Shown one piece after another: positions 894-18,898 of a stretch of DNA of 64,000 bases. Origin of the DNA: Bradyrhizobium sp. CCGUVB1N3 (GTDB lineage Bacteria > Pseudomonadota > Alphaproteobacteria > Rhizobiales > Xanthobacteraceae). The stretch lies in assembly GCF_024199925.1 (NCBI RefSeq), contig NZ_JANADR010000001.1, forward strand, positions 4,154,001 through 4,218,000, in the 5' to 3' direction. The position numbers were made by a program, and so were the translations under genes. Position 1 is the stretch's first letter. The number at the start of each line of letters is the position of its first letter. The notes below the pieces were generated by a model, which was not told where the DNA came from, searched no databases, and saw only the letters and a list, made by a program, of their open reading frames with translations.

Positions 894-2714
894 TTACTGT
901 GATCGCTGAACCGCCGGCTTCTCGCTTTCCTGCCGTGCGGCTGACAGATTGTGCGCGGTGTTGATCAGCGCGATATGGGTCAGAGCCTGCGGAAAGTTGC
1001 CGGTCTGGCGTCGCGCCAGAGAGTCGTATTCCTCGGCCAGGAGCCCGACGTCATTGGCGATGCCGACCACCCGGTCGAACAGCGCCTGCGCCTTGTCGAG
1101 GTCGCCAACGAGCACATGAGCATCCGCAAGCCACAGGCTGCAGGCAAGGAACGCCCCTTCGATCGGCGGTGTCTCCTCGGACACTTCGCGGGGATCATGC
1201 CGCAGCACGAATCCGTCGCGCATCAGGTGCTGTTCGACCGCCGTGATGGTGCCGCGCACCCGCGCATCCTTTGCCGGAAGGAAGCCGACCGCCGGCAGCA
1301 ACAGCACGCTGGCGTCGAGAACCTTCGAGCCGTAGGATTCGACGAAAGCGTTCGCCTCGGTATCGAAGCCTCTCTGACAGACGTCGCGGTGGATGGCGTC
1401 GCGCAAGGTGCGCCAGTGCAGCAGCGGCGCCTTGAAGCCGAAGGTCTCGGCGCTCTTGATGCCGCGGTCGAAGGCAACCCAGGTCATCACCTTCGAGAAG
1501 ACGTAGTGCTTAGGCTTGCCGCGGAGCTCCCAGATGCCGTGGTCGGGATGATCCCAGACCTCGGCCAAGTGCTGGAGCACGGCGCATTCCAGCGCCCAGC
1601 TTTCGTCGTCGAGCTTCAGTTTCGCCATGCGCGACTGGTGGAACGCATCGATCAGCTCGCCATAGACGTCGAGCTGCAATTGCGCGTGGGCGGCATTGCC
1701 GACGCGAACCGGCTTCGCCCCCTCATAGCCGTCGAGCCATTCGGCCTCCCATTCGAGCAGCCGCCGCTGGCCCCAGATGCCGTACATGATCTGCATGTTC
1801 GCCGGTGAACCGGCGGCCGCGCGCAACAGCCAGCTATGCCAGGCGGATGCCTCCTCGGTATAGCCGGAGTTCATCAACGCCAGCAGCGTGAAGGTGGCAT
1901 CGCGCAGCCAGCAGAATCGGTAATCCCAGTTGCGCATCCCGCCGAGCTTTTCCGGCAGCGACGTGGTCGGTGCCGCGACGATGCCGCCGGTCGGGTCAAA
2001 GGTCAGCGCCTTCAGCGTGATCAGCGAGCGCATGATGAGATCGTGATATTCGCCGTCGCGATTCGAGCGGCTGCACCAGTCCTTCCAGAAAGCTTCCGTC
2101 TCCGCGAATGCGCGCTCAGGATCAATTGCCTCGGGCGGATCGAGATGCGACGGGCCATAGGTCAGCACGAAGGGGATGGTCTCGCCCCCGGCCACCTCGA
2201 ATTCGGCGACGGTGGTGAGATCCTCGCCGCGCGTCTCGACGGGCGTGCGGAGCACCGTCATGTCCTGGCCGCAGATCGCAAGCACGGCGGAGCGATCCTC
2301 GGTCCGCCTGACCCAGGGGATATCGACCCCGAAGCCGAATCGGATGACGAGCTCCATCCTGAGCTTGACGCGGCCTTTCAGGCCGCGCACCAGCCGCACG
2401 ATGTCGGATGCCTTGCCGCGCGGCGGCATGAAGTCGATCAAGGCGACGGAGCCGCCGGCCGTCTCGAAACGGGTCTCAAGGATCAGCGTGTCGCCGAGAT
2501 AACGGCGGGAGCAAGCCGTGACGGCTTCGCTCGGCGCAATCTGCCAGCGGCCGTTCCTTCTGGTGCCGAGGATCGCGGCAAAGCAGGCGTCGGAATCGAA
2601 GGCCGGCCAGCACAGCCAGTCGATCGAGCCGTCGCGGCCGACGAGGGCCGCGGTCTCGCAATCGCCGATCAGCGCGTAATCTTCGATCTTCTGTGACAAT
2701 TCCGTGTGACCCAC
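894..2714 (-). CDS. GH15-family glucoamylase/trehalase-like hydrolase
   Basis: This 606-aa protein starts with the typical N-terminal beta-domain (IEDYALIGDCETAALVGRDGSIDWLCWP, read in pieces at residues 10-37). The (alpha/alpha)6 barrel carries RNWDYRFCWLRDA at 261-273, and AEEYD near 560-564 holds the likely catalytic Glu. Family members hydrolyse terminal alpha-glucosidic bonds of glucans or trehalose. There is no signal peptide, so it acts in the cytoplasm. It lies 22 bp downstream of malQ on the same strand and probably shares its promoter, including the EcfG-type site at 4770-4795. Whether it prefers trehalose or maltodextrin is not resolvable here. Some bacterial members of this clade are trehalases, which would complete a trehalose-consuming branch. 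Confidence 0.88.
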   Translation of the reverse strand: MGHTELSQKIEDYALIGDCETAALVGRDGSIDWLCWPAFDSDACFAAILGTRRNGRWQIAPSEAVTACSRRYLGDTLILETRFETAGGSVALIDFMPPRGKASDIVRLVRGLKGRVKLRMELVIRFGFGVDIPWVRRTEDRSAVLAICGQDMTVLRTPVETRGEDLTTVAEFEVAGGETIPFVLTYGPSHLDPPEAIDPERAFAETEAFWKDWCSRSNRDGEYHDLIMRSLITLKALTFDPTGGIVAAPTTSLPEKLGGMRNWDYRFCWLRDATFTLLALMNSGYTEEASAWHSWLLRAAAGSPANMQIMYGIWGQRRLLEWEAEWLDGYEGAKPVRVGNAAHAQLQLDVYGELIDAFHQSRMAKLKLDDESWALECAVLQHLAEVWDHPDHGIWELRGKPKHYVFSKVMTWVAFDRGIKSAETFGFKAPLLHWRTLRDAIHRDVCQRGFDTEANAFVESYGSKVLDASVLLLPAVGFLPAKDARVRGTITAVEQHLMRDGFVLRHDPREVSEETPPIEGAFLACSLWLADAHVLVGDLDKAQALFDRVVGIANDVGLLAEEYDSLARRQTGNFPQALTHIALINTAHNLSAARQESEKPAVQRSQ

Positions 2715-2736: not shown

Positions 2737-4692
2737 CTAACGGTGCGACCGCTCCCGCGTTGCTGTTTTCAGCGCGCCGCGATCGATGCTCGACGCGATC
2801 TTGTCAAGCGCGACCGGCAGCCGCTGGCGCCAGTTGGGGTGCTCGTCGATCGTGCCGGGGATGTTCGGCTGGTCGACCACGCCCAGGAGATCCTCGAGCG
2901 ATACCGCGAGAAGGCGGGACGGCGTCCGGGACAGGAAGGCCAGCACCGAATAGAGATCGTTGGCCTGAATGGCGTTGAAGCGCAGGATCTCGTCGAGCAT
3001 GCCGAGGGCGTGCCAGCGCGCCTCCTCGTTCTCGCCGGGGTCGAGCCCGAGCGAGAGCTTCATCTTGAGATCGCTGAACGAACGCCAGCCGGCATAGGTA
3101 CACAGATCATGCGTGTTCAACGTGACCAGCGCGTTGGACCGGTAATGATCGAGATTGCGGAAACGCCCGGCGTCATCGCGTTCGAACATCATCACGAGAT
3201 AGGACCAGATGCCCCAGTCCTGCATGGTCTCGCGAAAACCTTCCGGCACGGTGCCGAGATCCTCGCCGATCACGATGCATTTGTGGGCGGCGCTTTCACG
3301 CGCGACTGCCGCCAGCAGCGCCTCGAACGGCATCTGCACGTAGGCGCCGTTGTCCGGCTTGAAACCGCGCGGCACGAGGTAGAGCCGTTTCAGCCCGAGC
3401 ACGTGATCGAGCCTGATCGCGCCGGCATGGCGCATCGAGGCGGCCAGCATGTCAGCGAACGGCACGAACGACTGCGCTTCCAGACCGCCGGCATTGAAGC
3501 CGGCGAGGCCCCAATCCTGGCCCACCGTGTTCAGCACATCGGGCGGTGCGCCGACCGCGAGATGGCGGGAGATCGCGCCCTGCTCGTTCCAGGCGTCGAA
3601 CCCGTCCGACTGCACGCCGACAGCGACATCGAGATAGAGCCCGACCTTCATGCCGAGCCGGCCTGCGAGCTCCTTGGCCGCAGCCAACTGCCAATCGGCC
3701 GTCCATTGCACGAACTCGACGAACTCGACCTCGTCGTGATCGGGGCCTGCGCGCAGCTCCGCGCATTTGGTCTCGTCAGGCCGCTGCCACTCCGACGGCC
3801 ATTCCCACCACGGTCGTCCCGGGAAGCGATGGCGCAGCACCTCGAAACAGGCAAAGCGCGTCAACAGAGGACCCCGCTCGAGGCGGAAGGCGTCGAACGC
3901 CTGTCGGCGGCCAGGGCCCGCCTTGGTCTTGAACGCATCGAACGCGGCGCGCAGGCCGCGCCATTTCAGCGGCCCTGCCTCGCGGTATCGCACGCGGTCG
4001 CCTTCGCGCAAGGATGCCGCCATTGCGCGCACATCCGGCAGCAGATCGAACGAAAACTCCGGAATCTTGTCGACGTCGATGTAGAGTGGGTTGAGGAACA
4101 GCCGGCTGTTCGGCGAATAGGGGCTGCAGTCGGACGGCCGGTCGTCGAACAGCGCGTGCAGTGGGTTGAGGCCGACGCCATCTGCGCCGAGCTCCTTGGC
4201 AAGCGCAACGAGATCGGCAAGGTCTGTGAAATCGCCGATCCCCCAATTGCGCGCGGAGCGGACGCTGTAGAGCTGCACCGCAAGCAGCCAGCCGCGGTCG
4301 AACTCGCCGGTGAAAGCGCGCTCGGGCGCCACGATCAGCGGCGCCTCTTCCGCCGCCCCGGACGCATCGACGAGCTTCAGCCGGTGGTAGCCAGACGGCA
4401 GATTATCGGGCCAGACAATGATGCGCTCGCGCGCCTCGCCCTGCGCGACCGTCACGGTTCCGTTGACGACCGACCAATGCAGCGGAAGTTTGGCGGCCTC
4501 GGTGAGGTCGGTGCGTGGCTGCCGGCCGGTGCGGACCAGGACAGCACCGCTGACGAAACGGTAGGCGCGCTTTTCCGGCAGGGCATTGAGGATCGACGTC
4601 AGGGCATCGGGCGCGGTGACCCGCAGCTTGCCCAGGGCATCGACGAATTCGGACTGGACGCCCTTGGTTCTGGCTTCAGCTAAAAGATCCAT
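2737..4692 (-). CDS. malQ: 4-alpha-glucanotransferase (amylomaltase, GH77)
   Basis: The protein is 651 aa from the chosen start. It has the GH77 catalytic set: AIRLDHVLGLKRLYLVPRG (nucleophile Asp), CIVIGEDLGTVPEGF (acid/base Glu) and LNTHDLCTYAGW (transition-state Asp). The amylomaltase signature NWGIGDFTDL lies further upstream. It transfers maltodextrin segments between chains and releases glucose, so it recycles linear glucans produced by GlgX and TreZ. I chose the ATG at 4692 (MDLLAEARTKG) because family members begin this way. An in-frame ATG at 4731 would add 13 residues that look unconserved. The gene diverges from glgE and lies just downstream of an EcfG-type promoter, so induction by general stress is predicted. 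Confidence 0.93.
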   Translation of the reverse strand: MDLLAEARTKGVQSEFVDALGKLRVTAPDALTSILNALPEKRAYRFVSGAVLVRTGRQPRTDLTEAAKLPLHWSVVNGTVTVAQGEARERIIVWPDNLPSGYHRLKLVDASGAAEEAPLIVAPERAFTGEFDRGWLLAVQLYSVRSARNWGIGDFTDLADLVALAKELGADGVGLNPLHALFDDRPSDCSPYSPNSRLFLNPLYIDVDKIPEFSFDLLPDVRAMAASLREGDRVRYREAGPLKWRGLRAAFDAFKTKAGPGRRQAFDAFRLERGPLLTRFACFEVLRHRFPGRPWWEWPSEWQRPDETKCAELRAGPDHDEVEFVEFVQWTADWQLAAAKELAGRLGMKVGLYLDVAVGVQSDGFDAWNEQGAISRHLAVGAPPDVLNTVGQDWGLAGFNAGGLEAQSFVPFADMLAASMRHAGAIRLDHVLGLKRLYLVPRGFKPDNGAYVQMPFEALLAAVARESAAHKCIVIGEDLGTVPEGFRETMQDWGIWSYLVMMFERDDAGRFRNLDHYRSNALVTLNTHDLCTYAGWRSFSDLKMKLSLGLDPGENEEARWHALGMLDEILRFNAIQANDLYSVLAFLSRTPSRLLAVSLEDLLGVVDQPNIPGTIDEHPNWRQRLPVALDKIASSIDRGALKTATRERSHR

Positions 4693-4769
4693 TCGGCACG
4701 CAGTTTGCAGGCCACCAAGAGCGGGCGGCATCCATTTTTGTTAGGCGGAGGAAGAAGATAGTCGGGATT

Positions 4770-4896: not shown

Positions 4897-6837
4897 GTGA
4901 ACAAGACAATTCAAACTGTCGAGAGTGTCGCAGCCGGTGGCGCTTTCCTTATTGAAGACGTCTATCCGCTGGTCGATGGCGGCCGCTTTCCCGTCAAACG
5001 CGTCGCGGGCGAGCGCGTCGATGTCTGGGCGGACATCTACCGCGACGGCCACCACGCGGTCAGCGCCGCGCTGCTCTGGCGCCGCGAGCAGGATCGGGAA
5101 TGGCAGCGCACGCCGATGCTCCATCATGGCCATGACCGCTGGGTCGGCGCGTTCACTCCGCCCGGGCCGGGCCAATATGTCTACGCCATCGAGGCATGGA
5201 CCGACGAATTCGCGACCTGGCGTCACGGGCTCGCGATCAGGCAGCGATCCGGAGCCGATGTCACGCTCGATGCGATCGAGGGCGCCGCCCTCCTGACCAG
5301 AGCCCATGGCGCGGACGATGACGCCGCCGCGATCATCCTGCGGCAATGCGAGGATTTCCTGCAATCCGGCGAGGTCACCCCGCTGATGGCGGATGAGCTG
5401 AGGGACGCCATGGCCGACAGCCAGTCGCGGCCCGACCTCACCCGCTCGCCCCTCTTCCCGCTGGTCGCCGATCGCGACGAGGCACGCTTCAGCACGTGGT
5501 ACCAGATGATGCCGCGCAGCCAGGGCAAGGTCGCGGGCCAGCACGGCACGCTCAGGGATTGCATCGCGCGTGTCCCCGACATCGCCGCGATGGGTTTCGA
5601 CGTACTCTACTTCACGCCGATCCATCCGATCGGCCGCACCCGCCGCAAGGGCCGCAACAATTCGCCGGTCGCCGCCGCAGGCGATCCCGGCTGTCCCTAT
5701 GCCGTTGGCGCGTCCGAGGGCGGTCACGATACGTTGCACCCGGAGCTCGGCACCATCGAGGATTTCCGTGCGCTGGTTGCGACCTGCCTGGAATACGGCG
5801 TCGAGCTCGCGCTCGATTTCGCGGCTCAGTGTTCGCCGGATCATCCCTGGCTGACGCTGCATCCGGAATGGTTCAAGTGGCGGCCGGACGGCTCGATGCG
5901 GACGGCGGACTATCAGGACATAGTCACTCCCGATTTTGGCTGCGTGACCCGAAGCGAATTGTGGAACGCCTTCCGCGACGTCATGCTTTTCTGGATCGAC
6001 CATGGTGTGACCATCTTCGCGATCGACAATCACGACACCGCGCCCTTCAGCTTCTGGGAGTGGTTGATCCGCGACATTCGCCGCCGACATCCCGAGGTAA
6101 TCCTGTTCTCCAAGACCTACACCCGGCCGAAGCTGATGAAGGGCCTCGCCAGGCTCGGCTTCGCCCAGTCCTTCAGCTATTTTCCGTGGCGAACGCAAAA
6201 ATGGGAGCTGGAGCAATATTTGGCTGAAATGACCGGCTATCCCGAGCGCGACTTCCTTCGCCCCAACCTGTTCGTCAACACGCCTGACGTCTTGCCGTAT
6301 CATCTCCAGAGCGGCGAGCCCTGGATGTTCAAGTCGCGCGTCGCGCTGGCAGCCATGTTGTCGGCCACTTACGGCATCTATAGCGGCTTCGAGCTGCTCG
6401 AGCACCAGGCCGTTCCCGGTCGCGAGGAATATCTCGATTCCGAAAAATACGAGATCAGGGTTCGCGACTGGGACCGGCCCGGCAACATCAAGCCCTACAT
6501 TGCCGAGCTCAATCGCATCCGCCGCGACAACAAGGCGCTGCAACAGACGTCGAATTTGCGCTTTCTCGGCACCGACGATGGCGACGTGATCGCCTTCGTC
6601 AAGGAGTCGATCGACCGAACCAACACCGTCCTCGTCGCGATCGCTCTGTCGTCCAGCGCGCGCGAGGTCTGGCTCCCGCTTGGCGACGTCACGACCAGCG
6701 TGAACGGGGAACGTCGCCACATCGCACGCGTTGAGAACCTTCTCACCGGCGAGCAGTCCGCAATCGAATGGGGCGGAATCCGGCTGCGCATCGATCCATA
6801 TCGCGATCCGGCGCTCTCGTTCCGCTGCCTGGCGTGA
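4897..6837 (+). CDS. glgE: GlgE-like maltosyltransferase with an altered active site
   Basis: This 646-aa protein aligns end to end with GlgE (alpha-1,4-glucan:maltose-1-phosphate maltosyltransferase). It has the N-terminal beta domain, PIHPIGRTRRKGRNN at 241-255, QCSPDHPW at 311-318, and RPNLFVNTPD ending at 464. Canonical GlgE has FRVDNPHTKP around the nucleophile and LAEAFTRP around the general acid. Here these read FAIDNHDTAP (A375, D377) and FSKTYTRP (K406, codon AAG at 6112-6114). The nucleophile Asp and third Asp survive, but the general-acid Glu and the GH13 region II Arg are gone. Start is GTG; no in-frame ATG fits better. It heads the trehalose/glycogen operon, 11 bp before treS. 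It is either an inactive or regulatory paralogue or has changed chemistry. Confidence 0.85.
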   Translation: MNKTIQTVESVAAGGAFLIEDVYPLVDGGRFPVKRVAGERVDVWADIYRDGHHAVSAALLWRREQDREWQRTPMLHHGHDRWVGAFTPPGPGQYVYAIEAWTDEFATWRHGLAIRQRSGADVTLDAIEGAALLTRAHGADDDAAAIILRQCEDFLQSGEVTPLMADELRDAMADSQSRPDLTRSPLFPLVADRDEARFSTWYQMMPRSQGKVAGQHGTLRDCIARVPDIAAMGFDVLYFTPIHPIGRTRRKGRNNSPVAAAGDPGCPYAVGASEGGHDTLHPELGTIEDFRALVATCLEYGVELALDFAAQCSPDHPWLTLHPEWFKWRPDGSMRTADYQDIVTPDFGCVTRSELWNAFRDVMLFWIDHGVTIFAIDNHDTAPFSFWEWLIRDIRRRHPEVILFSKTYTRPKLMKGLARLGFAQSFSYFPWRTQKWELEQYLAEMTGYPERDFLRPNLFVNTPDVLPYHLQSGEPWMFKSRVALAAMLSATYGIYSGFELLEHQAVPGREEYLDSEKYEIRVRDWDRPGNIKPYIAELNRIRRDNKALQQTSNLRFLGTDDGDVIAFVKESIDRTNTVLVAIALSSSAREVWLPLGDVTTSVNGERRHIARVENLLTGEQSAIEWGGIRLRIDPYRDPALSFRCLA

Positions 6838-6848
6838 GGATCCGCGGC

Positions 6849-10134
<3,286 letters not shown>

Positions 10135-10142
<8 letters not shown>

Positions 10143-12282
10143 ATTGTCTGCCGAGGCCTATGCGATCATCGAGGGCCGCCACTCCGATCCCTTCCACTAT
10201 CTGGGGCTCCATCCCGAAGGCGACAAAAGCGTGGTGCGCGCCTTCCTGCCCGAGGCCTCCGATGTCGAGGCGGTCGGCGAGCATGGCGAGGTGGCGAAAC
10301 TCGACCGCATCCACGAGTCCGGCCTGTTCACGGGCGCGCTGCCCAATGGCGCCAAGCGCTACCAGTTGCGCGCGACGTTCGGCGGCAATGTCGTCGAGCT
10401 CGAAGATCCCTATCGCTTTCCGCCGATCCTGACCGATTTCGATCTCTATCTGCTCGGCGAAGGCACGCATCAGCGACTCTATGACAAGCTCGGCGCGCAT
10501 CCCATGACGCTCGACGGCGTCGACGGTGTCGGCTTCGTCGTGCTGGCACCCAATGCGCGGCGGGTCAGCGTGGTCGGCGACTTCAATTTCTGGGACGCCC
10601 GGCGTCACCCGATGCGTGTGCGCGGCGTCGGCTATTGGGAGCTGTTCATCCCGCATGCAAAGGCGGGCGATCACTACAAGTTCGATATGGTCGGACCGCA
10701 CGGCCACAATCTGCCGCTGAAGTCCGATCCTCTGGCGTTTGCCGCCGAAGTGCGGCCGAAGACGGCGTCGATCGTGTTCGATGAATTGCACCTTCCGCGC
10801 CCGCGGCCGGCGCCCGACGGCATCAACGCGCTCTCGGCGCCCATGTCGATCTACGAGGTGCATCTTGGCTCCTGGCGGCGCAAGGGCGACGGCGAATGGC
10901 TGACCTATCGCGAGCTCGCCGAGCAGCTTCCGGCCTATGCGCGCGACATGGGCTTCACCCATCTCGAGTTCCTGCCCGTCAGCGAGCATCCCTTTGACGG
11001 TTCATGGGGCTACCAGCCGACCGGCCTTTATGCGCCGACCAGCCGCTTCGGCCCGCCGGAGGATTTCGCCGCGCTGGTCGACGCCTGCCATCGCGAGGGG
11101 ATCGGCGTGCTGCTCGACTGGGTGCCCGGACATTTCCCCGACGATCCGCACGGCCTCGGCCATTTCGACGGCACCGCGCTCTACGAGCATGCCAACCCCT
11201 TACAGGGTCGCCATCTCGACTGGGGCACGCTGATCTACAATTACGGCCGCACCGAAGTGACGAACCTCCTGGTGTCGAACGCGCTGTTCTGGCTGGAGCG
11301 CTACGCCATCGACGGCCTGCGCGTCGACGCGGTCGCCTCCATGCTCTATCTCGATTACAGCCGCCCTGCGGGCGCCTGGATCCCGAACCAGTATGGCGGG
11401 CGCGAGAACATCGAGGCGATCGCGTTCTTGCGGCGCTTCAATACGGAAGTATTCGCGCGCTTTCCGCAGGCCACGACCGCAGCGGAAGAATCCACCGCCT
11501 GGCCCCAGGTTTCCCGGCCCGTCGAATTTGGCGGCCTCGGCTTCGGCTACAAATGGAACATGGGCTGGATGCACGACACGCTGAACTACATCAGCAAGGA
11601 TCCGATCTACCGCAAGCACCATCACGGCGAGATCCTGTTCGGCCTGCACTACGCCTTCTCGGAAAACTTCATCCTGCCGCTGTCACACGACGAGGTCGTG
11701 CACGGCAAACGCTCGATCCTCGGCCGCATGCCGGGCGACGAGTGGCAACGCTTCGCGAACTTGCGCGCCTATTACAGCTTCATGTTCGGCCATCCCGGCA
11801 AGAAGCTGCTGTTCATGGGCGGCGAGTTTGCGCAAGGCAAGGAATGGAATCACGACCAGTCGCTCGACTGGCATCTGCTCGAACACAAGAACCATTCCGG
11901 CATCCAGTCGCTGGTCCGCGACCTCAACCGGCTTTACCGCGCCGTGCCTGCGTTGCATCAGATGGACTGCGATCAGGCCGGCTTCGAATGGCTGATCACC
12001 GATGATGCCAACCGCAATGTGTTCGCCTGGCTGCGCAAGGGATTTGACGCCCGTGCGCGCTGTCTCGTGATCGTGAATTTCTCGCCGAACGTCTATCGCA
12101 ACTATCGCGTCCGGGTGCCGTTTGCCGGCAAGTGGCACGAGGTTCTCAATTCCGACTCCGCTCATTATGGCGGCAGCAATGTCGGGAACGTCGGAGAGGT
12201 GCAGGCGGTTGACGGCAAGACGCCGGAGCTGCGCCTGACCATTCCGCCGCTGGCTGCGATCTTCCTCGTTCCGGAAAGCTGA
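10135..12282 (+). CDS. glgB: 1,4-alpha-glucan branching enzyme
   Basis: This 715-aa protein has the GlgB layout: an N-terminal beta domain (HYLGLHPEG), a CBM48 domain ([15 protein letters not shown]) and a GH13 barrel. The barrel carries [17 protein letters not shown] (nucleophile Asp), AEESTAWP (acid/base Glu) and [12 protein letters not shown]. It introduces alpha-1,6 branches into glucan in the cytoplasm. The ATG at 10135 has a GGAG at 10121-10124 and overlaps the treS stop. The ATG at 10117 would add six residues without a better ribosome site. Its place directly after treS-mak is the usual GlgE-pathway arrangement, in which GlgB branches the chains that GlgE extends. Confidence 0.95.
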
Positions 12283-12285
12283 CCC

Positions 12286-14361
12286 ATGCGACTGACCGCC
12301 GGAACGCCCGCACGCCTCGGTGCAAGCTGGGACGGACGCGGCACCAACTTCGCGCTGTTCTCCGCCAACGCGCAGAAGGTCGAGCTGTGCCTGTTCGACA
12401 GCCAGGGCCGGCGCGAGCTCGAGCGCATCGAATTGCCCGAGCGCACCGAGGACGTCTGGCACGGCTATCTGAACGACGTCTCGCCGGGCCAGCTCTACGG
12501 CTACCGCGTGCACGGCCCCTACGAGCCCGAGCACGGCCACCGCTTCAATCCCAACAAGCTGCTGCTCGACCCCTACGCCAAGCGGCTCGCCGGGCGGCTG
12601 GTGTGGAGCGACGCGCACTTCGCCTATCGCACCGGCAGCCCGCGCGAGGATTTGTCCTTCGACCGGCGTGACAATGCACGCGGCATGATCAAGGCCGTGG
12701 TCGTCGACGAGACCTTCAACTGGGGCCGGCGCGAAATCCGCCCGAACATCCCCTGGGACGAGACGATCATCTACGAGGCCCACGTCAAGGGGCTGACGCA
12801 GAGGCGCGACGACGTGCCGCCGAACCTGCGCGGCACCTTTGGCGGACTGTCCTCGCCCGCCATGATCGAGCATCTGAAACGGTTGGGCGTGACCACCGTC
12901 GAGCTGCTGCCGATCCACGGCTTCATCGACGACCGCGTGTTGGTGGAGAAGAAGCTCGTCAACTACTGGGGCTACAACACCCTCGCCTTCTTCGCACCGG
13001 AGCCGCGCTACGCACAGGACAATCCACTGGATTCCTTCCGGACTACCGTGGCGCGCCTGCACGATGCCGGCATCGAGGTGATGCTCGACGTTGTCTATAA
13101 CCATACCGCTGAAGGCAACCATCTCGGCCCGACGCTGTCTTTCCGCGGCATCGACAACGCGTCCTATTACTGGCTGAACCGCGAGAACCCGCGCTACTAC
13201 GACGACTTCACCGGCTGTGGCTCGTCGGTGAACCTCACCCATCCTCGCGTGCTCCAGATGGTGACGGATTCGCTGCGCTACTGGGTCGAGGTCTGCCATG
13301 TCGACGGCTTCCGGTTCGATCTCGCCACCACGCTCGCGCGCGGACCGAACGGGTTTGATCGCGGCAGTTCGTTCCTGACCGCGGTCCGCCAGGATCCGGT
13401 GCTCCAGGGCGTAAAGCTCGTCGCCGAACCCTGGGACCTCGGCCTCGGTGGCTATCAGGTCGGCGCGTTTCCCTCGCAATGGTCGGAATGGAACGACCGC
13501 TATCGCAGCGCCATGCGCCGCTACTGGAGCGGCGAAGGCAGCCTGATCGGCGACGTCTCGAGCCGCATGACGGCGTCATCCGACCTGTTCCACCATGACG
13601 GACGCAAGCTGCGCGCCAGCATCAACCACATCACCGTGCATGACGGTTTTACGCTGGCCGACCTCTTCAGCTACAACCAGAAGCACAATGAGGCCAATGG
13701 CGAGGACAATCGCGACGGCTCCAACGACAACCACAGCAACAATTGCGGTGTCGAGGGCCCGACCGACGATCCGCAAATCCTGTCGCTGCGCCGCCAGCTC
13801 CGCAAGAACGTGCTCGCCTGCCTCATGCTCGCCCAGGGCACGCCGCTGCTGCTCGCCGGCGACGAGATCGGAAACACCCAGTCCGGCAACAACAATGCCT
13901 ATTGCCAGGACAATGAGGTGGGCTGGGTGCTCTGGGACAATCTCGGCAAGGACGGCGAGGACATGGTCGAGTTCGTGAACCAGCTCGCCGAGATCCGCCG
14001 CCGCTTCTCGCAGCTCCGCAGCCAGAGCTGGCTCGACGGCCGCCGCGCCAACGGCTCCTACGGTGTCCTGTGGCTGACGCCGGCGGCCGAAGAGATGACG
14101 GAGAGCGACTGGAATTTTCCGGAAGGCAGATTTCTCGCCTATGTGCTCGGACCGCTGGAACCCGGCGTGTCCGCGATCTTTATTGTCCTGAACGCCGCAC
14201 CGGAAGAGATCGGATTCAAATTGCCCAAAATGGCCGAATACAAGGGCTGGCAGCAGATCCTGAATACGACCGATGCCAAGCTGAACACGGTCGATTTCCT
14301 GCCTGGCACCGACAGCAAGGCGCCGCCGCGCTCGGTGCTCGCCTTCGCGGGCGCGCTATGA
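12286..14361 (+). CDS. glgX: glycogen debranching enzyme
   Basis: This 691-aa protein is an isoamylase-type debranching enzyme. It has an N-terminal CBM48 domain (GTNFALFSANAQKVELCLFD), NYWGYNTLAFFAPEPRY, VDGFRFDLATTLAR (nucleophile), VKLVAEPWDLG (acid/base Glu) and ITVHDGFTLADL. It cuts alpha-1,6 branches and releases short linear maltodextrins. These can feed TreY/TreZ or MalQ. The gene starts 3 bp after the glgB stop and its own stop overlaps the treZ ATG (ATGA at 14358-14361), so it is within the same transcription unit. All catalytic residues I can check are present. Confidence 0.94.
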   Translation: MRLTAGTPARLGASWDGRGTNFALFSANAQKVELCLFDSQGRRELERIELPERTEDVWHGYLNDVSPGQLYGYRVHGPYEPEHGHRFNPNKLLLDPYAKRLAGRLVWSDAHFAYRTGSPREDLSFDRRDNARGMIKAVVVDETFNWGRREIRPNIPWDETIIYEAHVKGLTQRRDDVPPNLRGTFGGLSSPAMIEHLKRLGVTTVELLPIHGFIDDRVLVEKKLVNYWGYNTLAFFAPEPRYAQDNPLDSFRTTVARLHDAGIEVMLDVVYNHTAEGNHLGPTLSFRGIDNASYYWLNRENPRYYDDFTGCGSSVNLTHPRVLQMVTDSLRYWVEVCHVDGFRFDLATTLARGPNGFDRGSSFLTAVRQDPVLQGVKLVAEPWDLGLGGYQVGAFPSQWSEWNDRYRSAMRRYWSGEGSLIGDVSSRMTASSDLFHHDGRKLRASINHITVHDGFTLADLFSYNQKHNEANGEDNRDGSNDNHSNNCGVEGPTDDPQILSLRRQLRKNVLACLMLAQGTPLLLAGDEIGNTQSGNNNAYCQDNEVGWVLWDNLGKDGEDMVEFVNQLAEIRRRFSQLRSQSWLDGRRANGSYGVLWLTPAAEEMTESDWNFPEGRFLAYVLGPLEPGVSAIFIVLNAAPEEIGFKLPKMAEYKGWQQILNTTDAKLNTVDFLPGTDSKAPPRSVLAFAGAL

Positions 14362-16112
14362 GGCCATCCTTCGGCGCCAAGGCAAGCAAGGAGGGCGTGT
14401 CGTTCCGGCTCTGGGCGCCCGGCGCCAGGCGGGTCGACCTCGTGCTCGACAAGCGCCATGCGATGCGGCGCCGCGAGGACGGCTGGCACGTGGCCGATAT
14501 TGCCGGGCTGACGGCGGGAGCCCGCTATCAGTTCAGGATCGACGACGAGCTCGACGTGCCCGATCCGGCCTCGGCCTTCCAGCCTGAGGATGTCTTCGGG
14601 CCGAGCGAGGTGGTCGATCACGACAGTTTTGAGTGGCGCGCCGGAGATTGGCGCGGGCGCCCGTGGCATGAGACGGTGCTGCTGGAATCCCATGTCGGCA
14701 CCTTCACGACGGAAGGCAGCTATCGCGCCATGATCGACAAGCTCGATCATCTCGTCGCGACCGGGATCACCGCGCTGGAATTGATGCCGCTGGCGGACTT
14801 CGCCGGCAAGCGCGGCTGGGGCTATGACGGTGTGCTGTGGTATGCGCCCGACAGCGCCTATGGCCGGCCCGAAGACTTGAAGGCGCTGATCGACGAAGCG
14901 CACCTGCGCGGCCTCATGGTCTTTCTCGACGTCGTCTACAACCACTTCGGACCCGAGGGAAACTATCTCGGCCGTTACGCGCCGAACTTCTTCACCGATG
15001 CCCATACGCCGTGGGGCAGCGCAATCGATTATCGCGTGCCGCAGGTCCGCGCCTTCGCGGTCGAGAATGCGCTCCACTGGCTCAGCGACTACCGCTTCGA
15101 TGGCCTGAGGCTGGACGCCGCCAACCACATCATGGCGATCCCCGGCGAGCAGTCGGTTTTGCATGATCTCAGCATTGCCGCGGGCCAGCTTGCGGCGGCC
15201 ACCGGGCGGCACATCCATCTCGTGCTGGAGAATGGCGACAATCGCGCGAGCCTGCTCGATCCCACTGAAGAGCCGCCGAACGGAAAATATCGCGGCCAGT
15301 GGAACGACGACTATCATCACGTCTGGCACGTGATGCTGACGCGCGAGTCCTCCGGCTATTATGGCGACTATCAGCGCTCGCCGAGCGGCGATCTCGCCCG
15401 CGCGCTGGCGTCGGGCTTCGTCTACCAGGGCGAGGTCTCCGCGTTCTGGGGCAACAAGCCGCGGGGCGAGCCGAGCCGGCAGCTTCCGCCGGATACTTTC
15501 GTCAACTTCCTGCAGAACCACGATCAGATCGGCAACCGGCCGTTTGGCGATCGGTTGGAGAGCATTGCGAGCCCCCGGGCGATCGAGGCCGCGCTCGCCG
15601 TGACCCTGCTCGCGCCGATGGTACCGATGCTGTTCATGGGCGAGGAGTGGGGATCGAACAAGCCGTTCCCGTTCTTCTGCGATTTCCACGGCGATCTCGC
15701 CAATGCCGTGCGCGAGGGACGGCGCCAGGAATATGCCTGGGCCTATGCAAAGTATGGCGACGAGGTGCCCGACCCGCTCGATCCGGCAACCCCGCAATCC
15801 GCCGTGCTCGATTGGGACTCGCGCAGCCCTGAGCACGACGCGCGGCTGTCGCTGGTCCGCGAGCTCCTGCGCATTCGCCGCACCGAAATCATGCCACGGC
15901 TTGCCGGCGCAGCCTTTGGCGAGGCCAAGGCCGCGGAGAGCGGGCTTTTGACGGCGCATTGGCGGATGGGAGACGGCGCGACGCTGCGCCTGACCGCCAA
16001 CCTTTCGGATCGCGAAATCGCATCACCTCAAATCACGGGCACGCCGATCTGGGGCGGCGAGCCCGGCGATCGACTTCCGCCCTGGTCGGTGGTCTGGCGC
16101 CTTACGAGGTGA
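14358..16112 (+). CDS. treZ: malto-oligosyltrehalose trehalohydrolase
   Basis: This 584-aa GH13 protein starts MRPSFGAKASKEGVSFRLWAP, the usual TreZ N-terminus with a CBM48-like domain. It contains VLLESHVGTFTTEG, WGYDGVLWYAPDSAYG, FDGLRLDAANHI (nucleophile), HLVLENGDNRAS (acid/base Glu) and FLQNHDQIGNRPFGDRL. It releases trehalose from maltooligosyl-trehalose made by TreY. The ATG at 14358 overlaps the glgX TGA. The same frame stays open back to 14070, but that stretch lies inside glgX and is not coding in this frame. The coupling of treZ to treY is the standard arrangement. Confidence 0.94.
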   Translation: MRPSFGAKASKEGVSFRLWAPGARRVDLVLDKRHAMRRREDGWHVADIAGLTAGARYQFRIDDELDVPDPASAFQPEDVFGPSEVVDHDSFEWRAGDWRGRPWHETVLLESHVGTFTTEGSYRAMIDKLDHLVATGITALELMPLADFAGKRGWGYDGVLWYAPDSAYGRPEDLKALIDEAHLRGLMVFLDVVYNHFGPEGNYLGRYAPNFFTDAHTPWGSAIDYRVPQVRAFAVENALHWLSDYRFDGLRLDAANHIMAIPGEQSVLHDLSIAAGQLAAATGRHIHLVLENGDNRASLLDPTEEPPNGKYRGQWNDDYHHVWHVMLTRESSGYYGDYQRSPSGDLARALASGFVYQGEVSAFWGNKPRGEPSRQLPPDTFVNFLQNHDQIGNRPFGDRLESIASPRAIEAALAVTLLAPMVPMLFMGEEWGSNKPFPFFCDFHGDLANAVREGRRQEYAWAYAKYGDEVPDPLDPATPQSAVLDWDSRSPEHDARLSLVRELLRIRRTEIMPRLAGAAFGEAKAAESGLLTAHWRMGDGATLRLTANLSDREIASPQITGTPIWGGEPGDRLPPWSVVWRLTR

Positions 16113-16114
16113 GC

Positions 16115-18898
16115 ATGCCTCCCGCCATTCCGCTCGCCACCTATCGCCTGCAATTCACCGCCGATTTCAACTTCGACGACGCCGCCAGGATCGTGCCTTA
16201 CCTCAAGGCACTCGGCATCATGCATGTCTACGCCTCGCCGCTGATGAAGGCGCGCAAGGGCTCGACCCATGGTTACGACATCGTCGACCACAGCCAGTTC
16301 AATCCGGAGCTCGGTGGCGAAGCCGGCTTCGTCCGCTTCAGCGACACACTGAAGCAGCATGATGTCGGCCTGATCATCGACTTCGTTCCAAACCACGTCG
16401 GCGTCCACTTTGCCGACAATCCCTACTGGCTGGACGTGCTGGAATGGGGACCGGCCTCGCCGCACGCAGCTTCCTTCGACATCGACTGGGACCAGTTGCC
16501 GTATCGCGCCCGCGGCGGCGTGCTGCTGCCGATCCTCGGCTCGGCTTATGGCGAAGCGCTGGAACGCGGCGAGATCGAGCTGCGCTATGATGCGGGCGAA
16601 GGCAGCTTTTCGGCCTGGTACTTCGAGCACCGCCTGCCGATCGCACCCGAGCGCTATGGCGAAGTCCTGCGAATGATCGTGAGGGAGGCGGATGCCACCG
16701 AGAGCGAGGCAGGAAAACACCTCCTGGCGGTCGCCGAACGCTACAAGGGGCTGCGTCATCCGAACCGCGAGGAAGCGCCGGCCTTCAAGGCCGAACTGAA
16801 TGCGATCGCCGGCGCTTGCGAAATCATGGAGCGAGGTCTTACCGCCTATCGTTCGGCCAAGGACCGCCCGACGCAAACGCTTGCCCTGCATCACCTGCTC
16901 GAGCGCCAGCACTACAAGCTCGGGCATTGGCGGCTGGCCTCCAGCGACATCAACTATCGCCGCTTCTTCGACGTCAATGGTCTTGCCGGCCTGCGGGTCG
17001 AGGACGCCAGCACCTTCGCGGCGACACACCGGCTGGTCAAGCAGTTGGTCGCGGACGGCAGGCTGCAGGGTATCCGGCTCGATCATATCGACGGCTTGCG
17101 CGATCCCGCGCAATATTGCCAGCGGCTGCGCCGGATCGTGCGCGACGCGCAAGGCACTGCAAAGCCATTCTACACCGTGATCGAAAAGATCCTGTGCGAG
17201 CACGAACGGCTGCCGCGCTTCGCCGGCGTTCACGGCACCACCGGCTATGAATGGATGAACGTCATCACCCAGGTGCTGGTCGATGCCAGGGGGCTCGACG
17301 CGCTCGACGAAACCTGGCGCCAGATCAGCAACCGCTCGCCGCGGCTTGCGCCCTATCTGATGGAAGCCAAGAGGCGCGTGCTGGACACGCTGCTCACCAG
17401 CGAGTTCACCGTGCTGACGCGCCTGCTCGCCCGCATCGCCAATGGGCACTACTCGACCCGCGACTTTTCCGCCGACAGCCTGCGGCAGGCGCTCGAGCTC
17501 TACGTGCTGCATTTCCCCGTCTACCGCACCTACATCACGACGAGTGGACCGACCGCTCACGACCGCAAGCTGATCGAAGAGACCATCGCACGCGCTCGCG
17601 CGGAATGGTTCGCGGCTGACGACGGCATTTTCGACTTCCTGCGCGACGCGCTGACCATGGACCTGCTGAGGCCGGATCGGCCGCCGCACAGCACCCCGCG
17701 CGTGCGCCGCTTTGCGCTGAAGGTACAGCAATTCACCGGGCCGATGGTGGCGAAGTCGCTGGAGGATACAGCCTTCTATCGCTATCACCGCCTGCTCGCA
17801 CTGAACGAAGTCGGCGGTGATCCCGCCGCAAAGGCTCTCGCGCTACCGGCGTTTCACGAGGTCATGAAGGCGCGCGCCAGGGAATGGCCGCATGGCATGA
17901 CGGCCACGGCCACGCACGACACCAAGCGCGGCGAGGACGCGCGGGCACGGCTCGCAGCGCTCAGCGAGATCCCGGGCGAATGGACCAGCGCGGTGGCACG
18001 CTGGAAGGTGCTGAACGTGCCGCACATCACCACGCATGGCGAGATGCGCGCGCCGTCGGCGACGTTCGAATACATGCTCTACCAGACGCTGCTCGGCGCA
18101 TGGACGCTCGGACCGCCTGACGCGAGCCTCATCGACCGCATCCAGGCCTACGCGCTCAAGGCGGCCCGCGAGGGCAAAGAGGAGACGAGCTGGCTCAATC
18201 CGAACGAAGCCTACGAGCAAGGTTTGCGGAATTTCATCGCGAAAGTCCTCGACCCCGCCGTCTCCGCCGAATTCCTGGACGCGCTCCAGACCCTCGCCCG
18301 GCGCGTTGCCCTGCTCGGCGCGCTCAATTCACTTGGCCAGCTCACTCTGAAGGCGACACTCCCGGGCGTACCGGATTTCTATCAAGGCACCGAATTCTGG
18401 GATCTGTCGCTGGTCGACCCCGACAACCGGCGTCCCGTTGATTTTGCCGCGCGAAGTGGTGCACTCGCTTCGCTCAAAAGTCCGGATTGGGACAGCCTCG
18501 CCGGGCACTGGCAGGATGGCCGGCTCAAGCTCGCCTGGACGCAGCGGCTCCTCGAATTGCGCACCGGGCTCGCCGATGTCTTCACCCGTGGCGACTACCA
18601 GCCGCTCGAGGTGAGCGGGCCGCACGGCGACCACGTCATCGCTTTCGCGCGGCGCCACGGACGCGATGCCGCGGTCATCGCGGTCGGACGATTGTTTGCA
18701 CCGTTCACCCAAGGCGGTCGTGAATGGCCGACCGCTCAAGCCTTCGACGCAAGCGTCAACGTGACGGGCTATGCGATCGCAGGGCACGACGGTGATGAGC
18801 TGCGGATCTCGCAGGCGTTTCGCGCGCTTCCCGCAACGGTGCTCAAGGCGCGCGTTGCGAGCGCAGCAAGGCCAGCGCGACCCCGCGGACGGGCCTGA
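16115..18898 (+). CDS. treY: malto-oligosyltrehalose synthase
   Basis: This 927-aa protein is a full-length TreY, which isomerises the reducing end of a maltodextrin into a terminal trehalose unit. Visible family motifs are PLATYRLQF near the start, YASPLMKARKGSTHGYDI, IIDFVPNHVG, GIRLDHIDGLRDP (nucleophile), YTVIEKILCEHERLP (acid/base Glu) and TATHDTKRGEDARARLAAL near the C-terminal third. It starts 2 bp after the treZ stop. A much longer in-frame start (15959) would lie inside treZ and is rejected. It is the last gene of the operon. The convergent gene on the minus strand ends only 9 bp beyond its stop. Confidence 0.95.
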   Translation: MPPAIPLATYRLQFTADFNFDDAARIVPYLKALGIMHVYASPLMKARKGSTHGYDIVDHSQFNPELGGEAGFVRFSDTLKQHDVGLIIDFVPNHVGVHFADNPYWLDVLEWGPASPHAASFDIDWDQLPYRARGGVLLPILGSAYGEALERGEIELRYDAGEGSFSAWYFEHRLPIAPERYGEVLRMIVREADATESEAGKHLLAVAERYKGLRHPNREEAPAFKAELNAIAGACEIMERGLTAYRSAKDRPTQTLALHHLLERQHYKLGHWRLASSDINYRRFFDVNGLAGLRVEDASTFAATHRLVKQLVADGRLQGIRLDHIDGLRDPAQYCQRLRRIVRDAQGTAKPFYTVIEKILCEHERLPRFAGVHGTTGYEWMNVITQVLVDARGLDALDETWRQISNRSPRLAPYLMEAKRRVLDTLLTSEFTVLTRLLARIANGHYSTRDFSADSLRQALELYVLHFPVYRTYITTSGPTAHDRKLIEETIARARAEWFAADDGIFDFLRDALTMDLLRPDRPPHSTPRVRRFALKVQQFTGPMVAKSLEDTAFYRYHRLLALNEVGGDPAAKALALPAFHEVMKARAREWPHGMTATATHDTKRGEDARARLAALSEIPGEWTSAVARWKVLNVPHITTHGEMRAPSATFEYMLYQTLLGAWTLGPPDASLIDRIQAYALKAAREGKEETSWLNPNEAYEQGLRNFIAKVLDPAVSAEFLDALQTLARRVALLGALNSLGQLTLKATLPGVPDFYQGTEFWDLSLVDPDNRRPVDFAARSGALASLKSPDWDSLAGHWQDGRLKLAWTQRLLELRTGLADVFTRGDYQPLEVSGPHGDHVIAFARRHGRDAAVIAVGRLFAPFTQGGREWPTAQAFDASVNVTGYAIAGHDGDELRISQAFRALPATVLKARVASAARPARPRGRA

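Follow-up and report, generated by a model that had tools for sequence, protein, structure and literature searches.

The best-described relatives of the two proteins considered here are GlgE1 of Streptomyces coelicolor, an alpha-1,4-glucan:maltose-1-phosphate maltosyltransferase of family GH13_3, and the maltokinase (Mak/Pep2) of M. vanbaalenii (4u94). In GlgE, N352, K355, Y357 and N395 act as ligands of the donor phosphate (PMC4526890), and roles have been described for the acceptor-site residues, including the ridge residue W448 (PMC5076824). Mutation of Glu423 abolishes the activity of the S. coelicolor enzyme, H397R alone lowers kcat about 40-fold (Table 1), and the E423A protein, which is without the acid, was crystallised with malto-octaose spanning subsites -2 to +6 (PMC5076824). 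The maltose-pocket residues of the M. vanbaalenii enzyme have also been described, and mutating K413, Y416 or Y420 practically abolished its maltokinase activity (PMC4306142). GlgE and Mak residues are numbered below as in these two proteins.

We identified a homologue of GlgE at positions 4897..6837 (+ strand) of the window, the whole 64,000-nucleotide stretch of Bradyrhizobium DNA analysed here, which belongs to a genome of 10.4 Mb. The open reading frame is intact, begins with GTG and encodes 646 amino acids. The eight best PDB matches of the protein are all GlgE, headed by the S. coelicolor structures 5vsj, 4u2y and 3zss (E about 1e-145, residues 13-639), and the Pfam domain PF11896 (GlgE_dom_N_S) is matched with 186.5 bits. 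The protein is thus GlgE by descent, and an initial annotation of this locus, which had recognised a full-length GlgE homologue in an intact frame, is upheld on this point.

The gene heads an array that continues in the same direction with a treS-mak fusion (6846..10142), glgB for the branching enzyme (10117..12282), glgX for the debranching enzyme (12286..14361), treZ (14322..16112) and treY (16109..18898), the starts of the last two being uncertain. On the opposite strand lie malQ, the divergent neighbour (2737..4731), and a gene for a trehalase/glucoamylase-like protein (894..2714) that is TreH1-like but below cut-off. The setting beside treS-maltokinase and glgB is therefore as initially described, and the TreS-Mak and GlgB context is also that of S. 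coelicolor GlgE1. In relatives with a canonical GlgE the gene order from malQ to glgB, and to glgX where covered, is identical. We searched the whole genome for a second GlgE, which had been raised as a possibility, and obtained a single match, the gene in the window. GlgM, an alternative source of maltose 1-phosphate, gave no match above cut-off in this genome. GlgC and two GlgA genes were found above cut-off; the GlgA genes are at G000:C1:2855899-2857299 and G000:C1:8424694-8426115, and one of them adjoins GlgC. The stress-sigma promoter motif has the consensus GGAAC-N16/17-CGTT. It has three matches in the window compared with 1.4 expected, and we rejected it as a candidate element near malQ, glgE or treS since it is not conserved: among 100 K-type loci (see below) it lies near the treS start in 4, on the malQ side in 6 and upstream of glgE in none.

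Alignment with S. coelicolor GlgE1 places Lys406 (6112..6114) at the position of the general acid E423 and Ala375 (6019..6021) at that of the -1 subsite residue R392, while the nucleophile D394 is kept as D377 (6025..6027) and D480 as D464. All four assignments agree with those made initially. N378 is also retained. In addition, and not mentioned initially, P396-H397 is replaced by His379-Asp380 (6031..6036), and the donor-phosphate loop, canonically ENPPKKY, is shortened (5908..5913), with N352 and K355 absent and Y357 kept as Y339. We refer to the GlgE clade with Lys at position E423 as K-type and to canonical GlgE as E-type.

Both replacements that the initial annotation had pointed out are conserved among orthologues, with Lys in 130/130 K-type genomes and Ala in 128 (Thr and Ser in one each). 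The His-Asp pair and D464 are each present in 130/130, and the nucleophile is Asp in 127, the other three having Ala, Val and Ala. N352 and K355 are lost in all 130, and the other two phosphate ligands, Y357 and N395, are present in 129 and 130. Since the acid, the -1 subsite Arg and two of the four phosphate ligands are replaced throughout the clade, no retaining maltosyl transfer would be expected, in line with the initial prediction that normal transfer should be abolished. A sequencing error or strain-specific mutation can for practical purposes be set aside because the Lys is fixed in 130/130 species genomes with an intact close orthologue; it is also found in 117 of 121 aligned proteins (the query and the best 120 of 7997 matches). 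No close relative with Glu and Arg at the two sites, which would have told against the initial annotation, was found; the relatives that have these residues fall outside the K-type clade.

The sugar-binding parts of the protein show a different pattern. In the -2 maltose subsite K264 (codon 251, 5647..5649), A282, D359, K534 and Y535 (codons 517-518, 6445..6450) are present in 130/130 K-type genomes, and N268 is Asn in 121 and Asp in 9. In the acceptor site W448 (codon 431, 6187..6189) is found in 130/130, P428 in 129, Y445 in 126 and R449 in 124, with Asp at H397 in all. Judged by conservation, the fold, the -2 subsite and the aromatic acceptor ridge are retained. K-type proteins thus share with S. 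coelicolor GlgE1 full-length homology, the N/S domain, the -2 subsite and the ridge (P428, Y445, W448 and mostly R449). They differ from it in having Lys for the acid, Ala for R392, Asp for H397 and no N352 or K355, and the nucleophile is missing in 3 of 130.

Among 265 Bradyrhizobium genomes searched, 216 have some GlgE match, nine of these only a weak amylase-like one, which leaves about 58 with no match beyond such weak ones. We read the GlgE residues of 206 copies from 205 genomes: 130 are K-type, 41 canonical (those of G258 and G264 partial), 30 have a changed phosphate loop with the catalytic residues kept (the W-type described below, and G151), and five show other catalytic losses. Two further genomes carry broken K-type copies, with a large internal deletion in G163 (C335:37855-38334) and a split over two frames in G267 (C1:6696248-6698190). 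The K-type forms one clade (SH-aLRT 100) in a phylogeny built from 42 K-type sequences, 27 others and that of S. coelicolor, and its sister branch is the canonical GlgE of G190. This protein (locus L057), like other canonical Bradyrhizobium GlgEs, occupies the same position beside treS-mak, glgB and malQ, but it has all catalytic and phosphate residues and is adjoined by a maltokinase of canonical type.

The best 80 named loci encoding the window protein are labelled Bradyrhizobium in 79 cases and as a Bradyrhizobiaceae assembly in one, and all six named loci assigned to B. japonicum or B. diazoefficiens are of the K-type. Many soybean-type Bradyrhizobium carry a GlgE without catalytic and phosphate-binding residues and with the sugar-binding site kept. 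Outside the genus no K-type protein was found in the order, all 71 genomes read being canonical (73 strong matches order-wide; the fragmentary G472 and G566 left out). In the protein search, which covered the best 120 of 7997 matches and alone extended beyond the order, one K-like metagenomic protein, P0114, is without the His-Asp pair. Databases still label some K-type proteins as maltosyltransferase, and the titles and abstract openings of the open-licence PMC papers listed in literature searches yielded nothing on inactive GlgE or on Bradyrhizobium GlgE residues.

The gene is under purifying selection, as had been proposed from its intact frame. Computed over non-independent pairs, K-type GlgE has a median pairwise dN/dS of 0.163, compared with 0.134 in the E-type set. 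Within the K-type, pN/pS is lowest in the lid and active-site stretches (0.120 and 0.165, against 0.26-0.29 in the N, S and C domains, with approximate boundaries), and the E-type shows a similar pattern of domain constraint. Out of 13 sugar-site residues the mean number kept is 13 in canonical proteins, 12.88 in the K-type, 11.80 in the set with a changed phosphate loop and 9.60 in the five proteins with other losses. Stem lengths leading to the K-type are 0.196 for GlgE, 0.191 for Mak and 0.026 for TreS; scaled to within-clade depth they become 0.85, 0.71 and 0.65, so that we do not claim a strong burst of change on the stem.

The adjoining fusion protein joins an unchanged trehalose synthase to a remodelled maltokinase half, here called Mak' (approximately 8559-10142). 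The initial annotation had taken this maltokinase to be intact. However, maltose-pocket residues are lost in every K-type Mak examined (in sets of 94 and 91 sequences). H307R, E324D, E412D and loss of the Trp of the RPxW motif are found in 94/94; Lys at position 413 survives in only 4/94; E326 is replaced by Asp, Asn, His or Gly; and Y416 is present in 0/91, Y420 in 88/91. In the window H307, E326, K413, Y416 and Y420 read R, N, T, D and Y, four of the five being replaced. The changes lie at TreS-Mak codon 949 (Arg for H307, 9690..9692), codons 1062-1065 (Thr and Asp at the K413 and Y416 sites, 10029..10040) and codon 1077 (Ala for the Trp of RPxW, 10074..10076), all on the + strand. The ATP and magnesium residues D305, Q310, D322 and K149 are present in 94/94, and the P-loop residue S136, which is Ala in the window, is kept as Ser in 80/91. 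Mak' therefore shares with the M. vanbaalenii enzyme the HGD catalytic base, the Gln and Asp magnesium ligands, the Lys and most of the P-loop, but unlike that enzyme it has H307, E326, Y416, the conserved Trp and mostly K413 replaced, with Y420 mostly kept. The remodelling is confined to this half: in 101 TreS-Mak proteins (82 beside K-type, 19 beside E-type GlgE) the sites that are invariant beside E-type GlgE and replaced in more than 90% of K-type number 21 of 246 in Mak and 0 of 442 in TreS. Selection on Mak is similar in K-type and canonical genomes (dN/dS 0.215 and 0.188) and is 0.331 in genomes without GlgE.

The states of GlgE and Mak are coupled across the genus. Of 19 fused Mak sequences with a canonical GlgE as neighbour (L237-L246 are outside this comparison), 18 have the canonical residues at all 16 sites compared and the nineteenth differs at one. 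The same is true of 0 of 149 others, which comprise 92 K-type, 14 W-type or derived, three with other losses, G151 and 39 that have no GlgE next to them. None of the 91 distinct K-type TreS-Mak sequences is canonical at all 16. Canonical GlgE has been replaced or lost several times in Bradyrhizobium, and in each case examined the fused Mak is non-canonical. On the best TreS tree the two states change nine times each. A test of paired changes could draw on only four well-supported pairs, of which a mean of 3.9 were concordant and none was ever opposite (median p 0.125, non-significant); the tree-based association agrees with coupling and is not significant alone. In this respect the genus is a natural experiment, and it offers a setting outside Actinobacteria for examining whether maltose 1-phosphate is toxic.

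Both the maker and the user of maltose 1-phosphate, read in 91 distinct K-type Mak sequences and in the GlgE of 130 K-type species genomes, look non-functional in this group, and the pathway is probably not running there, its chemistry having been given up in GlgE and Mak alike. These residues contradict the literature, where a complete glgE operon has been ascribed to B. japonicum. We think it reasonably probable that the K-type protein is a GlgE-derived pseudoenzyme, a maltose- or malto-oligosaccharide-binding partner left after the maltose 1-phosphate route was abandoned; loss of GlgE activity is inferred here, as are ligand binding, the partner role and the flux. The protein would bind maltose, or the non-reducing ends of malto-oligosaccharides or glycogen, without turnover, for which the malto-octaose complex of the acid-less S. 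coelicolor E423A protein (PMC5076824) offers a precedent, and might work alongside TreS-Mak', GlgB, GlgX and TreYZ in docking or sensing. With its ATP site but without the maltose-pocket residues, Mak' would probably not make maltose 1-phosphate, and because of that loss the other fate for this compound that the initial annotation had called for would not be needed. MalQ would receive the maltose formed by TreS, and glycogen synthesis would rely on GlgC, GlgA and GlgB. A B. diazoefficiens treS mutant has more trehalose and less maltose (PMC8092242), a phenotype that is consistent with TreS converting trehalose into maltose and is silent on Mak.

The signature expected of a pseudoenzyme, catalytic loss together with selection on the ligand site, is present in the K-type sequences, and several observations stand against this reading. 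The acceptor-site residue H397 is Asp in 130/130, 88/91 K-type Mak sequences still have the pocket residue Y420, the gene has been broken at least twice (G163 and G267), and P0114 does not have the His-Asp pair. Moreover, the invariance of the new residues H379, D380 and K406 and the conserved ATP site of Mak' would also fit an enzyme of a different pathway. In that case the three residues would make up a new active centre in a protein that still has its maltose-binding scaffold, and a new acceptor would be phosphorylated by Mak'. The complete retention of D305, Q310, D322 and K149 alongside a uniformly changed sugar pocket, and a Mak dN/dS near the canonical value and below that of GlgE-less genomes, also point that way. 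A phosphosugar donor is improbable, however, since the nucleophile is dispensable in 3/130 and all 130 are missing two phosphate ligands. Catalytically active GH13 proteins are not known to have Lys in place of the acid, and we regard such new chemistry as unlikely. A related possibility, rather less likely than not, is that the former maker and user of maltose 1-phosphate were repurposed as a pair in the B. japonicum supergroup once that compound had been abandoned. Mak' would then be a kinase or sensor that depends on ATP and has a new substrate, GlgE would be a maltose- or glucan-binding protein centred on Lys, His and Asp, and the two together would regulate how trehalose and maltose flow through the unchanged TreS.

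That the K-type protein is still an active GlgE, its lost groups compensated by neighbouring residues, would accord with the retained -2 subsite and with a nucleophile in 127/130. This is very improbable given the effects of Glu423 mutation and H397R in the S. coelicolor enzyme (PMC5076824), the absence of two of four phosphate ligands and the altered maltose pocket of Mak in the same genomes. Simple decay has more in its favour: GlgE and Mak would be drifting since the route was lost, with deletion ahead, as in other Bradyrhizobium lineages. About 58 of the 265 genomes are without a real GlgE match, Mak is eroded in the 30 of these examined, two K-type copies are broken, and five other genomes have catalytic losses that also damage the sugar site. 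However, 130 copies are intact at a dN/dS of 0.163 with the active-site stretches the most constrained, and the replacements are uniform rather than scattered. Mainly because the K-type keeps 12.88 of 13 sugar-site residues and the five other-loss proteins 9.60, we prefer retained binding by a pseudoenzyme and consider a decaying remnant rather improbable.

The five other-loss proteins themselves look like decay. The GlgE of G112 (L247/L286) has D394T and E423G, those of G140 and G202 (L248-L249) have D394K, and those of G248 and G117 (L284-L285) have E423G; these changes are accompanied by losses in the -2 subsite and by a non-canonical Mak. In the 30 GlgE-less genomes (L207-L236) erosion of the Mak active site follows a scattered pattern, with the P-loop Ser lost in 30/30. 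A full-length Mak half is still attached to TreS in these genomes despite this erosion, and for that reason TreS may need it structurally.

The W-type clade (loci L250-L266, L276-L283, L288, L289, L291, L292 and L421-L427) has the Arg, Asp and Glu of GlgE intact, and ENPPKKY is mostly changed to EHPPQRW. In its Mak the P-loop Ser is present in 0/12, E324 and E326 are kept in 1/12 each and DFEGE is mostly DFDGG, while the sugar sites are retained (H307 in 11/12; K413, Y416, Y420 and the Trp in 12/12). With the phosphate loop and the Mak P-loop changed and the catalytic residues and maltose pocket kept, this suggests that W-type GlgE is a phosphate-independent transglycosylase. The GlgE of G151 (L429) reads as a single open frame, about 674 amino acids long, and contains an insert. 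Its catalytic residues are kept, K355 reads as Glu and Y357 as Cys, and Mak is non-canonical.

Eight genomes (nine loci, L267-L275; L295-L303 belong to the same set) contain a canonical GlgE of 60% identity together with a canonical maltokinase that is not fused to TreS, a pair that may have been re-acquired. Their fused TreS-Mak proteins, counted with that of G264, are non-canonical in 9/9, and one of the eight, G102, has two copies.
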